From Aquabacterium olei (lineage in GTDB: Bacteria; Pseudomonadota; Gammaproteobacteria; Burkholderiales; Burkholderiaceae_C): a DNA stretch of 64,000 bases. The stretch spans positions 2,480,001 to 2,544,000 of the forward strand of contig NZ_CP029210.1 in the NCBI RefSeq assembly GCF_003100395.1, given 5' to 3'. Both the position numbers and the translations under genes were made by a program. Positions 27,089 to 31,134 of this stretch are shown here, one piece after another. How positions within the stretch are numbered: the stretch's first letter is position 1; each line of letters opens with the position of its first letter. Under the pieces are notes generated by a model. That model did no database searches and was not told the DNA's origin. It saw only the letters and a list, made by a program, of their open reading frames with translations.

Positions 27089-27727
27089 ATGAAAGCCGAA
27101 GCGCGTCCGAATCACCTGCGACTGGTGATCGTCCTGCCTGTGGCGCTGTCCGCCGAACCCGACGAGGCGGAGGTGGCCGAGGCGGAGCGCACGCGCGTCC
27201 TGCGCATCGCCCTGCTCGAGGCCGGCTACAACGTGGTGGCCACCCTGCCGGGCGACCGCTTCCTGCCGGAACGCATTGCGCAGATCCAGCCAGACATGAT
27301 CGTGGTGGATGCCGAATCGCAAGGCCGCGACATCCTGGAACACGTGGTGATGGCAACCCGCGACGAACGCCGGCCCATCGTGATGTTCTCGGACGACGAG
27401 GACACCAGCCATGTTCGACGAGCGATTGCAGCCGGGGTCTCGGCGTATGTGGCCGCGGGGGTGCCATCGGACCACGTGAGGCCCGTGATCGAGGTAGCGA
27501 TGGCACGCTTCGAACATGAAGAGCAGCTCCGGCGTGAACTGGCCGATGCACGCAGCCAGCTGGAAGAACGCAAGGTGGTGGACCGAGCGAAAGGCCTGTT
27601 GATGTCGCGCCAGGGCTTGAGCGAGCAGGAAGCCTATGCGCGGCTGCGCAAGGCGGCGATGGACAAGGGCATCCGGCTCGCCGAGGTGGCTCAACGATTG
27701 ATCGACGCAGCCGACCTGCTGGGCTGA
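27089..27727 (+). CDS. nasT: ANTAR-domain response regulator NasT (nitrate-responsive antiterminator)
   Basis: A 212-residue protein. Residues about 10-135 form a receiver-like domain that keeps Asp-74 (IVVDAES) but lacks the usual acidic residues at the first strand (RLVIVLP), so phosphorylation control is doubtful. A coiled-coil-like linker (about 137-158) leads to the ANTAR domain (about 155-208: VDRAKGLLMSRQGLSEQEAYARLRKAAMD and IRLAEVAQRLI), which binds paired RNA hairpins and prevents termination. In related bacteria NasT is held by the nitrate sensor NasS. No nasS lies next to it. The target hairpins are found immediately downstream, before nrtA. Confidence 0.93.
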   Translation: MKAEARPNHLRLVIVLPVALSAEPDEAEVAEAERTRVLRIALLEAGYNVVATLPGDRFLPERIAQIQPDMIVVDAESQGRDILEHVVMATRDERRPIVMFSDDEDTSHVRRAIAAGVSAYVAAGVPSDHVRPVIEVAMARFEHEEQLRRELADARSQLEERKVVDRAKGLLMSRQGLSEQEAYARLRKAAMDKGIRLAEVAQRLIDAADLLG

Positions 27728-27876: not shown

Positions 27877-27892
27877 TGGCACACCCTTTGCA
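27877..27892 (+). promoter_or_regulatory. Sigma-54 (RpoN) promoter of the nrt operon
   Basis: TGGCAC followed by ACCCT-TTGCA has the invariant GG and GC separated by exactly ten bases and matches the sigma-54 consensus at nearly every conserved position. The predicted start is near 27903, only about five bases before the first ANTAR hairpin. Such a promoter needs an enhancer-binding activator, probably NtrC. Convincing NtrC sites were not recognised in the 150 bases upstream, which otherwise hold nothing I can identify. Confidence 0.85.
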
Positions 27893-27907
27893 TTGATCCC
27901 TGCACAT

Positions 27908-27956
27908 CCAGGTCAACGGCGATCTGGCCTGTCTTGGGTGCCCAGTGCCGGGCCCC
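27908..27956 (+). ncRNA. ANTAR-target two-hairpin leader RNA
   Basis: Hairpin P1 (27908-27927) has stem CCAGGTC/GATCTGG and hexaloop AACGGC. Hairpin P2 (27936-27956) has stem GGG-(bulged T)-GCCC / GGGC-CCC and hexaloop AGTGCC. Eight bases separate them. Both loops have A at position 1 and G at position 4, the rule for RNA bound by ANTAR proteins. A terminator follows and nasT is directly upstream. The element should control antitermination into nrtABD. Confidence 0.85.
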
Positions 27957-27969
27957 GAGCTTTCGACAA

Positions 27970-28032
27970 AGGTGTCATCGACGGATCGGTGCGTGCGCGC
28001 ACAGGTCTGGCGAGGACACCTTTTTTGTTTTT
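27970..28032 (+). terminator. Leader terminator controlled by the ANTAR hairpins
   Basis: AGGTGTC (27970-27976) pairs perfectly with GACACCT (28015-28021). An inner hairpin GTGCG-TGCG-CGCAC lies within, and a T-run, TTTTTTGTTTTT, follows from 28021. It sits between P2 and the nrtA start codon, so transcripts stop here unless NasT acts. Confidence 0.8.
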
Positions 28033-28054: not shown

Positions 28055-29299
28055 ATGAATTCGCAGGATCACAAGATGACCCGCCGCACCATCCTGAAAA
28101 CCGCAGCCGCCGCCAGCGCCGTCGGTGTCGTCCCCGGTCTGCAATCGGCCGTGTGGGCCGCCGGCTCGGACAAGCCCGAGCTGGAAGAGGTCAAGATCGG
28201 CTTCATCCCGCTCACCGACTGCGCCTCGGTGGTGATGGCCTCGGTGCTGGGCTTCGACAAGAAGTACGGCATCAAGATCATCCCGACGAAGGAGGCCTCG
28301 TGGGCCGGTGTGCGTGACAAGCTGGTGAACGGCGACCTGCACATGGCGCACGTGCTGTATGGCCTGGTCTACGGCGTGCACCTGGGCATCGGCGGCCCGA
28401 AGAAGGACATGGCCGTGTTGATGAACCTGAACAACAACGGGCAGGCGATCACGCTGTCGAAGGCGCTTGCGGACAAGAAGGCCGTCGACGGTGCTTCGCT
28501 CGCCAAGCTAATGGCCACGGACAAGCGCGAGTACACGTTTGCCCAGACCTTCCCGACCGGCACGCACGCCATGTGGCTCTACTACTGGCTGGCGAGCTAT
28601 GGCATCAACCCCATGAAGGACGCCAAGGTCATCACCGTGCCGCCGCCGCAGATGGTGGCCAACATGCGCGTGGGCAACATGGATGGCTACTGCGTGGGCG
28701 AGCCGTGGGGCCACCGCGCCATCATGGATGGGATCGGCATCACGGCCGTGACGACGCAGGACATCTGGCAGGATCATCCGGAGAAGGTGCTGGGCTGCAC
28801 GGACGAGTTCGTCAAGAAGCACCCCAACACCGCGCGCGCCGTGATCATGGCCGTGCTGGAAGCCAGCCAGTGGATCGACGCTGGCCTGCAGAACAAGCTG
28901 AAGATGGCCGAGACCATCTCTGCCAAGTCGTACGTGAACACCGGCGTGGATGCGATCAACCAGCGCATTCTGGGTCGCTACCAGAACGGCCTGGGCAAGA
29001 CGTGGGACGACCCCAACCACATGAAGTTCTTCAATGACGGCAAGGTCAACTTCCCGTACCTGAGCGACGGCATGTGGTTCCTCACGCAGCACAAGCGCTG
29101 GGGCCTGCTGAAGGACCACCCCGACTACCTGGGCGTGGCCAGGCAGGTCAACAAGATCGACCTGTACAAGCAGGCCGCCTCGGCCCTGAAGGTCAGCGTG
29201 CCCAAGGACGTGATGCGCACGAGCAAGATGATCGACGGCATGGTGTGGGACGGCAAGGACCCGAAGAAGTACGCCGACGGTTTCAAGATCAAGGCATGA
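28055..29299 (+). CDS. nrtA: Nitrate/nitrite ABC transporter substrate-binding protein
   Basis: A 414-residue protein of the CmpA/NrtA family, start ATG at 28055 after GGAAAG. The N-terminus MNSQDHKMTRRTILKTAAAASA has a twin-arginine TRRTILK motif, a hydrophobic stretch and an AWAA-type cleavage region. Export separates it from the cytoplasmic sensor NasS, which is homologous but unexported. Family blocks are EEVKIGFIPLTDCASVVMAS, WAGVRDKLVNGDLHMAHVLYGLVYG and VGNMDGYCVGEPWGHRA. It binds nitrate in the periplasm for NrtB/NrtD. Bicarbonate or another oxyanion is possible by homology, but the NasT leader supports nitrate. Confidence 0.9.
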   Translation: MNSQDHKMTRRTILKTAAAASAVGVVPGLQSAVWAAGSDKPELEEVKIGFIPLTDCASVVMASVLGFDKKYGIKIIPTKEASWAGVRDKLVNGDLHMAHVLYGLVYGVHLGIGGPKKDMAVLMNLNNNGQAITLSKALADKKAVDGASLAKLMATDKREYTFAQTFPTGTHAMWLYYWLASYGINPMKDAKVITVPPPQMVANMRVGNMDGYCVGEPWGHRAIMDGIGITAVTTQDIWQDHPEKVLGCTDEFVKKHPNTARAVIMAVLEASQWIDAGLQNKLKMAETISAKSYVNTGVDAINQRILGRYQNGLGKTWDDPNHMKFFNDGKVNFPYLSDGMWFLTQHKRWGLLKDHPDYLGVARQVNKIDLYKQAASALKVSVPKDVMRTSKMIDGMVWDGKDPKKYADGFKIKA

Positions 29300-29378: not shown

Positions 29379-30305
29379 ATGGTCAGCGCCGTCTTCCACA
29401 GCCCCTCCGATGCCAGCGACGCGATGCGTGCCGCCAAGGCTTCTGCCACCGCTTCCGCCTTCCCTGCTTCCACGATGACTTCCGCCACCCTCACTCCACC
29501 TGCCCCGCGCGCGGCGGCGCCCTCCAAACCTCCGGTCGACTGGGGCGCCCTGGCACTGCGCACACTGTCCCCTCTGGCAGGGCTGGCCGTGCTGATCGGC
29601 ATCTGGGCCATGCTGACCATGAAGGGCGGCAACTTCCCGACGCCAGCTGCCACCTGGGAGGCCGCTGTGGCACTGTTCTCGGACCCGTTCTACAGCAACG
29701 GCCCGAACGATCAGGGCATCGGCTGGAACATCCTGTTCTCGCTCAAGCGCGTGGCCATGGGCTTCGGTCTGGCAGCGCTGGTGGGCATCCCGATGGGCTT
29801 CATCATCGGCCGCAGCAAGGTGATCGGCGCGATGCTGAACCCGATCATCAGCCTGCTGCGCCCGGTCTCGCCGCTGGCCTGGTTGCCGATCGGCCTGCTG
29901 GTGTTCAAGTCGGCAGACCCGGCGGCCATCTGGACGATCTTCATCTGCTCGATCTGGCCGATGATCATCAACACCGCGGTGGGCGTGCAGCGCGTGCCGG
30001 AGGACTATCTGAATGTCGCCAAGGTGCTGAACCTGAGCGAATGGAAGATCGTCACGAAGATCCTGCTGCCTTCGGTGTTGCCCTACATGCTGACCGGCGT
30101 GCGCCTGTCGGTGGGCACGGCCTGGCTGGTGATCGTGGCCGCCGAGATGCTGACCGGGGGCGTGGGCATCGGCTTCTGGGTGTGGGACGAGTGGAACAAC
30201 CTGAACGTGCAGCACATCATCATCGCGATCTTCGTGATCGGGATCGTGGGGCTGCTGCTGGAGCAGGCCCTGGTGTCCATCGCCAAGCGATTCAGCTTCG
30301 AGTAA
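29379..30305 (+). CDS. nrtB: Nitrate ABC transporter permease
   Basis: A 308-residue permease. About 60 Ala/Pro/Ser-rich cytoplasmic residues precede six predicted helices. The binding-protein-dependent transport signature appears as LSLLRPVSPLAWLPIGLLVF, with the EAA-type loop AKVLNLSEWKIVTKILLPSVLPYMLTGVRLSVGTAWLVIVAAEML, followed by GIGFWVWDEWNNL typical of NrtB/SsuC-type permeases. AAGGAG precedes the ATG. It lies 79 bases after nrtA. Confidence 0.92.
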   Translation: MVSAVFHSPSDASDAMRAAKASATASAFPASTMTSATLTPPAPRAAAPSKPPVDWGALALRTLSPLAGLAVLIGIWAMLTMKGGNFPTPAATWEAAVALFSDPFYSNGPNDQGIGWNILFSLKRVAMGFGLAALVGIPMGFIIGRSKVIGAMLNPIISLLRPVSPLAWLPIGLLVFKSADPAAIWTIFICSIWPMIINTAVGVQRVPEDYLNVAKVLNLSEWKIVTKILLPSVLPYMLTGVRLSVGTAWLVIVAAEMLTGGVGIGFWVWDEWNNLNVQHIIIAIFVIGIVGLLLEQALVSIAKRFSFE

Positions 30306-30333: not shown

Positions 30334-31134
30334 ATGTCCCACTTCATCGACGTCCGCAACGCGGAGATGGTGTTCAACACGAAGAAGGGCCGCTTCCATG
30401 CGCTGCGCGACATCAACCTGGGCATCGACAAAGGCGAGTTCATCGCGCTGATCGGGCACTCAGGCTGCGGCAAGTCAACGCTGCTGAACCTGATTGCCGG
30501 CCTGCTGCTGCCCACCGAGGGCGGCCTGATCTGCGACAACAAGGAAATTGCCGGCCCCGGGCCGGAGCGCGGGATGGTGTTCCAGAACCACTCGCTGCTG
30601 CCGTGGCTGACCTGCTTCGACAACGTGTATCTGGCGGTCGAGCGCGTGTTCGGCGGCAAGGAAAGCAAGGCACAGTTGAAGGCGCGCACCCAGGCGGCGC
30701 TGGAACTGGTCAACATGGCGCATGCCAGCCAGAAGCGGCCTAACGAGATTTCGGGCGGCATGAAGCAGCGGGTGGGCATCGCACGCGCACTGGCCATGGA
30801 GCCCAAGGTGCTGCTGATGGACGAGCCGTTCGGTGCACTCGACGCCCTGACCCGCGCACACCTGCAGGACGAACTCCTGAAGATCGTCGCACGCACACAG
30901 AGCACCGTCGTGATGGTGACGCACGACGTGGACGAGGCCGTGTTGCTGTCGGACCGCATCGTGATGATGACCAACGGCCCCGCTGCAACCATCGGTGAAG
31001 TGCTGGAGGTACCGCTGGCCCGACCGCGCAACCGCGTGGAGTTGGCCGAGGACGCGACCTACATGCACTGTCGCAAGGCGGTGCTTGACTTCCTGTACAC
31101 GCGGCACGGCGCGCCCCAGAAAGAGGCGGCCTGA
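30334..31134 (+). CDS. nrtD: Nitrate ABC transporter ATP-binding protein
   Basis: A 266-residue ATPase. Walker A GHSGCGKST is at about residues 44-52, the Q-loop is in MVFQNHSLLPW, the signature is SGGMKQR, Walker B is VLLMDEPFGALD and the switch His is in MVTHDVDEAV. The DNVYLAVERVF and DRIVMMTNGPAATIGEVLEV stretches are typical of the nitrate/taurine-type group. It ends without the NrtA-like C-terminal domain of NrtC, so it is of the NrtD type. It is 28 bases after nrtB. Confidence 0.93.
   Translation: MSHFIDVRNAEMVFNTKKGRFHALRDINLGIDKGEFIALIGHSGCGKSTLLNLIAGLLLPTEGGLICDNKEIAGPGPERGMVFQNHSLLPWLTCFDNVYLAVERVFGGKESKAQLKARTQAALELVNMAHASQKRPNEISGGMKQRVGIARALAMEPKVLLMDEPFGALDALTRAHLQDELLKIVARTQSTVVMVTHDVDEAVLLSDRIVMMTNGPAATIGEVLEVPLARPRNRVELAEDATYMHCRKAVLDFLYTRHGAPQKEAA

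Follow-up and report, generated by a model that had tools for sequence, protein, structure and literature searches.

A putative three-hairpin ANTAR antitermination leader before nrtABD of Aquabacterium olei and its two candidate readers

Results

The window analyzed here is a 64,000-nucleotide stretch of contig NZ_CP029210.1 of Aquabacterium olei, whose genome assembly is 99.7% complete at 4.26 Mb. Inside it, a set of leader elements occupies the gap between nasT and nrtA, ahead of nrtABD (Table 1). The ANTAR domain of NasT scores above its cut-off and its receiver domain below (Response_reg, 20.7 bits), and the Tat-like signal of NrtA falls just under threshold (TAT_signal, 21.2 bits; cut-off 22.7). 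An Rfam search of the window at gathering thresholds returned a tRNA as its sole match. A genome scan with model R1 gave no other strong match to the leader; the runner-up, at 18.2 bits, sits within open reading frames and was rejected as a candidate copy.

Table 1. Genes and leader features of the nasT–nrtABD region, in window positions.
Feature	Position	Strand	Evidence
nasT, receiver-like and ANTAR protein	27089–27727	+	PF03861, 76.4 bits
sigma-54 box TGGCAC-N5-TTGC, TGGCACACCCTTTGC, GG-N10-GC	27877–27891	+	exact pattern match
P1 hairpin, hexaloop AACGGC (27915–27920), C-G closing pair	27908–27927	+	MFE and centroid
Middle hairpin Pm, hexaloop AGTGCC (27944–27949), bulged T27939	27933–27959	+	MFE
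P3 hairpin GAC-AAAGGT-GTC, putative antiterminator, overlaps terminator 5' arm	27965–27976	+	prefix folds, invariant positions
Intrinsic terminator, stem 27968–28023, U tract 28021–28032 (TTTTTTGTTTTT to 28032)	27968–28032	+	MFE
nrtA, NasF-type nitrate-binding protein, Tat-like signal	28055–29299	+	NMT1_2, about 338–339.5 bits
nrtB, permease	29379–30305	+	TIGR01183, 254.6 bits, over cut-off
nrtD/C, ATPase	30334–31134	+	TIGR01184, 335.2 bits, over cut-off

A sequence-only reading of this stretch had described a near-consensus sigma-54 promoter, two hairpins with the hexaloops AACGGC and AGTGCC, each with A at loop position 1 and G at position 4 (A1/G4), an intrinsic terminator ahead of nrtA, and an ANTAR protein encoded just upstream. 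All of these are present. Taken alone, the sigma-54 box is weak evidence, because TGGCACN5TTGC has one exact match in the window against 0.33 expected and 29 of 100 shuffled windows hold at least one; conservation carries the weight. Among 50 loci, 25 intergenic regions defined by nasT, a gap of about 190–375 bases and an nrtA-like gene were chosen regardless of hairpins. The pattern TGGY-N6-8-YTGC is kept in 24 of them (L023 is off at one position), 34–38 bases from the P1 loop in 23 regions and 78 bases from it in L046, and every one of the 25 contains a P1-type A1/G4 hairpin. By arithmetic, assuming that C27891 is position −12, the predicted +1 falls at about 27903, five bases 5' of P1.

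The predicted leader fold reaches −62.4 kcal/mol, below every one of 200 shuffled sequences (z −4.1). The leader also contains a third hexaloop hairpin that the sequence-only reading did not list, P3, whose loop AAAGGT again has A1 and G4; where the ANTAR rule calls for two A1/G4 hexaloops, this leader thus has three. The loop and 3' arm of P3 (27968–27976) are the 5' arm of the terminator, and by prediction the two structures (27965–27976 and 27968–28023) are mutually exclusive. When prefixes of the growing transcript were folded at three-base steps, P3 appeared in 11 of the 14 predicted folds ending at 27977–28016, and from 28019 onward the terminator supplanted it in 6 of 6. Retaining P3 with its loop open gives −49.0 kcal/mol, as against −62.4 for the full fold.

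P3 consists of only three pairs, and in the prefix folds A1 pairs with U6 to leave a tetraloop, which counts against its reading as an ANTAR site. Its conservation points the other way. We aligned the window and 24 loci from the sigma-54 box to the T run (L046 omitted), none of them picked for P3, and found G27965, C27967, G27971, G27974 and C27976, the outer stem positions and G4, invariant in 25 of 25 leaders. A P3-type hairpin lies over the terminator in all 25 intergenic regions, with A1 in 21 and G1, which is unfavorable to our main reading, in four; our P3 scans required G4 and A or G at position 1, so G4 is there by construction. The P3 pair counts in the covariation analysis are likewise by construction, and the unconstrained evidence for P3 is the 25-leader alignment.

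Covariation from P1 to P3 was examined in 33 of 40 leaders, leaving out four near copies (L007, L019, L027 and L036), two leaders with odd linkers (L025 and L042) and one lacking the middle hairpin (L046). Pair changes involving both partners numbered 102, whereas shuffles gave 41.1, and such changes affect 14 of 19 pairs overall, 5 of 7 in P1 and 7 of 8 in Pm. Sliding the pair partners lowered pairing from 86% to 24–51%. As these leaders are related, the figures are not probabilities.

The spacing of the hairpins depends on where the middle one is taken to begin. By the folded stems, 5 nt separate P1 from Pm, 5 nt separate Pm from P3, and P1 lies 37 nt from P3; the eight-base spacer of the earlier description is obtained if the middle hairpin begins at GGG. 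We surveyed linkers and loops in three sets: the genus with the closest named loci (43 ids, of which 33 were kept, nine were identical and L136 was not resolved), Oxalobacteraceae (15 ids: eight resolved, two of them wrongly, six not, one identical) and the order (40 ids: 24 resolved, at least two wrongly [L085 and L086], 14 not, two identical). An order-wide scan gave matches in 73 of 300 genomes at E ≤ 0.01, which is no count of true leaders, and 30 of its loci were inspected. Because the survey admitted only P1 loops with A1 and G4, and only P3 loops with G4 and a purine at position 1, its 33 of 33 for those loops is uninformative; only the middle-hairpin counts are free of selection.

Two classes of P1–P3 linker emerged, one of 5–16 nt (five loci) and one of about 30–48 nt (most others), with outliers at 26 nt (L096) and 59 nt (L042); values of 8, 14, 14 and 70 belong to mis-resolved rows. 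The long class mostly contains a hairpin, and a predicted middle hairpin is common in Burkholderiales. Across the 32 leaders from the genus and nearest named loci, its loop shows A1 in 22, G4 in 29 and the full rule in 21. The rule holds in 13 of 14 Oxalobacteraceae leaders, the loop of L035 having five bases, and among the 19 order rows with a linker hairpin the first loop has six bases in 13 and other lengths in six, with A1/G4 obeyed by all 13 six-base loops (one of them, L007, a near copy of the window). With the rule followed by most leaders outside the genus and by 21 of 32 in the set of the genus and nearest named loci, Pm looks like a genuine third ANTAR site whose loop has become less constrained in Aquabacterium. 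The loop conservation on which the sequence-only reading could be checked therefore divides: P1 and P3 are conserved, and the middle loop departs from A1/G4 in 11 of 32 leaders.

The middle hairpin is missing, with the terminator-overlapping one kept, in L046, in L195 and in the nasF leaders of Erwinia and Pantoea. L046 (L046:5339-6540), from a gammaproteobacterial metagenome-assembled genome (MAG), carries a tandem pair of nasT-like genes, with 36% and 51% identity to nasT of the window, before a two-hairpin leader and nrtABD. L195 (G567 C37, in an assembly with 9% contamination) is a second, diverged nasT–nrtA copy with a two-hairpin leader and a 9-nt linker. In G547 (L136), the P1 loop reads GACGTT and has lost A1, an observation against our main reading, and Pm reads AACGGC; this fits hairpins whose roles may be exchangeable.

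In the two-hairpin antiterminators of eutP, amiE and nasF, the second hexaloop hairpin occupies the terminator's 5' base and is incompatible with it (PMC3369931), a mechanism restated in PMC7496416. By this analogy it is P3, rather than the AGTGCC hairpin, that corresponds to the published ANTAR "P2". The sequence-only reading had instead taken P1 and the AGTGCC hairpin as the switch, which would make P3 merely part of the terminator. The 5-nt spacer between that pair lies within the 5–12 nt range of eut linkers (PMC3369931), both loops have A1 and G4 in the window, and outside the genus the middle loop mostly follows the rule. We nevertheless regard this pairing as very improbable: neither hairpin overlaps the terminator, and binding there would not obviously prevent it; the middle loop breaks the rule within the genus at the frequency given above; no aligned leader varies at G27965 or C27967, two positions that the main terminator stem does not include; and the leaders that lack a middle hairpin retain P3. 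The spacing does weigh against a simple P1–P3 pair, as a 14-nt linker drastically cut eutP induction (PMC3369931) and 37 nt far exceeds it. We therefore propose that either Pm and P3 would be bound, P1 serving for initial docking, or Pm would bridge P1 and P3.

Three proteins encoded in the A. olei genome match the ANTAR profile: NasT, a NasR-type NIT-ANTAR protein 1.1 Mb away (L059, 346–1707; NIT 166 bits, ANTAR 71.5 bits) and a response regulator with a partial match of 30.5 bits (L060:1048-1656, G000 C1:2447.7 kb). The last stands behind an open reading frame that appears kinase-like by eye, and comparable weak matches occur in many genomes of the genus.

Across the genus, 38 of 42 genomes have a strong nrtA (NMT1_2 above 320 bits). 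An ANTAR match lies within 3 kb of nrtA on the same strand in 29 of these and is absent there in nine. Queried with NasT, the nine genomes yielded no NasT, the best match being the C-terminal part of NIT-ANTAR; this absence is less certain for G558 (89% complete) and G575 (86% complete, 7% contaminated). All nine encode a full-length NIT-ANTAR protein (56–85% identical), with both domains verified in one of them; this search by full protein covered 15 of the 42 genomes, including all nine, and the ANTAR profile covered the others. All nine also keep the exact sigma-54 form, P1, P3 and the terminator, whose 5' arm in each is again the P3 loop and 3' arm, with 9 of 9 pairs. Pm varies in these leaders, the P1 loop of G538 reads AAGGGC, and the P1 top pairs of G561 are CC/GG.

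Seven of the NasT-less leaders precede an orthologous nrtA. In G561 and G568 (L166 and L167) the nrtA behind the leader is of another type, with about 33% identity, so promoter and leader outlived an exchange of the transporter. In the seven, the tsaD and nrtA matches are 197–392 bases apart, compared with 887–1521 otherwise, as if nasT had dropped out between them. On the nrtA tree, which has good support at only 13 of its 34 inner branches, these seven imply six gains or losses of nasT, at least three of them forced by well-supported branches, and the absence of nasT does not cluster (183 of 500 shuffles as low).

Three genomes (G560, G562 and G567) have NasT and the leader, and no NIT-ANTAR was found in them; G562, at 99% completeness, is the firm case, G560 being 88% complete and G567 9% contaminated. 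G557 has neither an ANTAR match nor a strong NMT1_2 match. Further ANTAR proteins of 28–65 bits occur in the genus, including eight of the nine NasT-less genomes, and as candidate readers they count against assigning the leader to NasT and NIT-ANTAR. Those eight genomes have one or two further, mostly weak ANTAR matches, and in G561 NIT-ANTAR is the sole match at E ≤ 1e-5.

A second ANTAR-type leader in the A. olei genome separates the NIT-ANTAR gene from a formate/nitrite transporter (FNT) gene (L059:1790-1960; G000 C1 near 3604.9–3605.1 kb). It was spotted by eye, since model R1 misses the FNT type, and has a P1 loop AAAGGC, a terminator-overlapping hairpin ggat-GAAGGC-gtcc and, upstream, a sigma-54-like box with mismatches. 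FNT was the next gene found in 11 of 21 NIT-ANTAR loci (20 genomes, A. olei included). With terminators called by eye, all 11 have a G4 hairpin with a GTC-type 3' arm, ten of them with G at loop position 1, and eight have a P1-type A1/G4 hairpin; by eye, the loop starts with G in L151, L153 and L156. The P1 top pairs are GCY/GGC in FNT leaders as against TC/GA in the nrtA leader, a difference that may suit them to separate readers; in eutP, the sequence of the closing pairs mattered (PMC3369931).

NasS, which usually senses nitrate for NasT, was not found: in the A. olei genome, nrtA scores 339.5 bits with the NMT1_2 profile and the next protein 44.6, and an NrtA query returned one match, leaving no second strong NrtA/NasS relative. 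Among the fetched loci, the same query recovers six gammaproteobacterial NasS proteins at E of about 1e-43 or better. NrtA is 54–59% identical to relatives from Erwinia, Pantoea and a Klebsiella plasmid, and in our tree it groups with enterobacterial NasF and with signal-less proteins encoded after nasT in Oxalobacteraceae and one Rubrivivax MAG. This NasF/NrtA clade of 18 has support of 100/100, with the six other sampled NasS outside, and long branches, some of them at deep joins, were flagged, so that placement within the clade and the root are unsure. That NrtA might itself be a NasS carrying a signal was dropped, given its grouping with enterobacterial NasF. The tree suggests that elsewhere, in the Oxalobacteraceae and the Rubrivivax MAG, a transport-type protein became a NasS-type partner. 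In one locus (L025:4546-8075), nasT, a leader, a signal-less NasS-like protein, a second nrtA and a permease follow one another, the leader directly preceding the NasS-like gene itself.

Discussion

Our computed results comprise the leader sequences with their conservation and covariation, the mutual exclusion predicted by folding, and the distribution of genes; binding, the nitrate response, the reader protein and the identity of the two bound hairpins are what we infer from them. The nrtA leader is probably a nitrate antitermination switch in which P3 competes with the terminator, most likely operated by NIT-ANTAR with NasT as a second or alternative reader. A sigma-54-dependent transcript starting at about 27903 would fold P1, then Pm, then P3. 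Without nitrate, the terminator hairpin would displace P3 once its 3' arm (28015–28023) is made, and transcription would halt by 28032, short of nrtABD. With nitrate, an active ANTAR dimer would bind two A1/G4 hexaloops, P3 among them, and P3 held in this way would block the terminator. The signal would most likely enter through the NIT-ANTAR protein encoded elsewhere.

The sequence-only reading was a sound observation, one hairpin short, that chose between two possible regulators by proximity and without proof. Its view of the sigma-54 promoter, the ANTAR-type antiterminator and the terminator as a single short leader is supported; its choice of NasT from adjacency fares less well. Were NasT the only reader, NIT-ANTAR would serve just the neighboring FNT leader, in which the P1 top pairs do differ; an ANTAR match adjoins nrtA in 29 of 38 genomes, and G562 has NasT and no NIT-ANTAR. 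All nine NasT-less genomes keep the leader, however, and no NasS was found to pass the nitrate signal on, which together make this account unlikely. The converse, NIT-ANTAR as the only reader and NasT as a bystander or modulator heading for loss, is a possibility we hold tentatively: every NasT-less genome pairs NIT-ANTAR with the leader, and the nasF leaders of Erwinia and Pantoea adjoin an annotated nitrate regulatory protein, but 29 of 38 genomes retain NasT, and three without NIT-ANTAR keep NasT and the leader. Since the leader persists in the nine genomes that lack one protein and the three that lack the other, the simplest reading is that either may work it, with NIT-ANTAR the most likely reader in A. 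olei.

How NasT might sense nitrate here invites a further, rather doubtful idea, that Tat-exported NrtA doubles as its sensor in place of NasS. Tat substrates fold prior to export, and for this reason NrtA could hold NasT in the cytoplasm: a folded NrtA precursor would retain NasT and release it upon nitrate binding. The loop would then be closed, because nrtA itself lies behind the leader. Its comparative grounds are the NasF/NrtA clade, a lineage that seems to have given rise to a NasS-type partner elsewhere, and G562, which has NasT, NrtA and the leader but contains no second strong NMT1_2 protein and no NIT-ANTAR. If the idea is true, two unrelated nitrate sensors would share the three-hairpin leader, which could then survive losing either one.

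Compared with known systems, the leader shares with the two-hairpin ANTAR class of PMC3369931 its A1/G4 hexaloops, a last hairpin over the terminator 5' arm and a nitrogen-metabolism target. It differs in the third hexaloop hairpin placed between the others, in the relaxed loop rule of that middle hairpin and in outer hairpins 37 rather than 5–12 nt apart. With the Klebsiella-type NasR/nasF system it has in common the sigma-54 box, P1, an AAAGGC-type hairpin, a NasF-type protein downstream, a NIT-ANTAR protein in the genome and C-G closing pairs such as those in the SELEX of NasR (PMC7496416). Here, however, the NIT-ANTAR gene is 1.1 Mb off, its place being taken by nasT. In Erwinia and Pantoea, the leaders that link the gene of an annotated nitrate regulatory protein to nasF have the sigma-54 box, P1 and a terminator-overlapping AAAGGC hairpin, and unlike ours the enterobacterial nasF leaders have no middle hairpin. 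As in the NasS–NasT system described for Paracoccus (PMC3795266, PMC5424462), NasT is encoded near a hairpin leader before nitrate-assimilation genes; in A. olei, no NasS was found and the leader lies between nasT and nrtA.

Burkholderia was already among the hits of Ramesh et al. 2012 (PMC3369931). A published three-hairpin ANTAR leader is not named in the titles and abstract openings that our literature searches listed. The system is of a known kind, here with a three-hairpin leader and an apparently exchangeable regulator.

Together, these findings indicate that an ANTAR gene adjoining a leader cannot be presumed to encode its reader. The relatives without nasT (nine) or NIT-ANTAR (three) that retain the target RNA make the notion of one switch with two sensors testable. 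The same relatives open both the function of NasT without NasS and the role of a third ANTAR hexaloop to testing.
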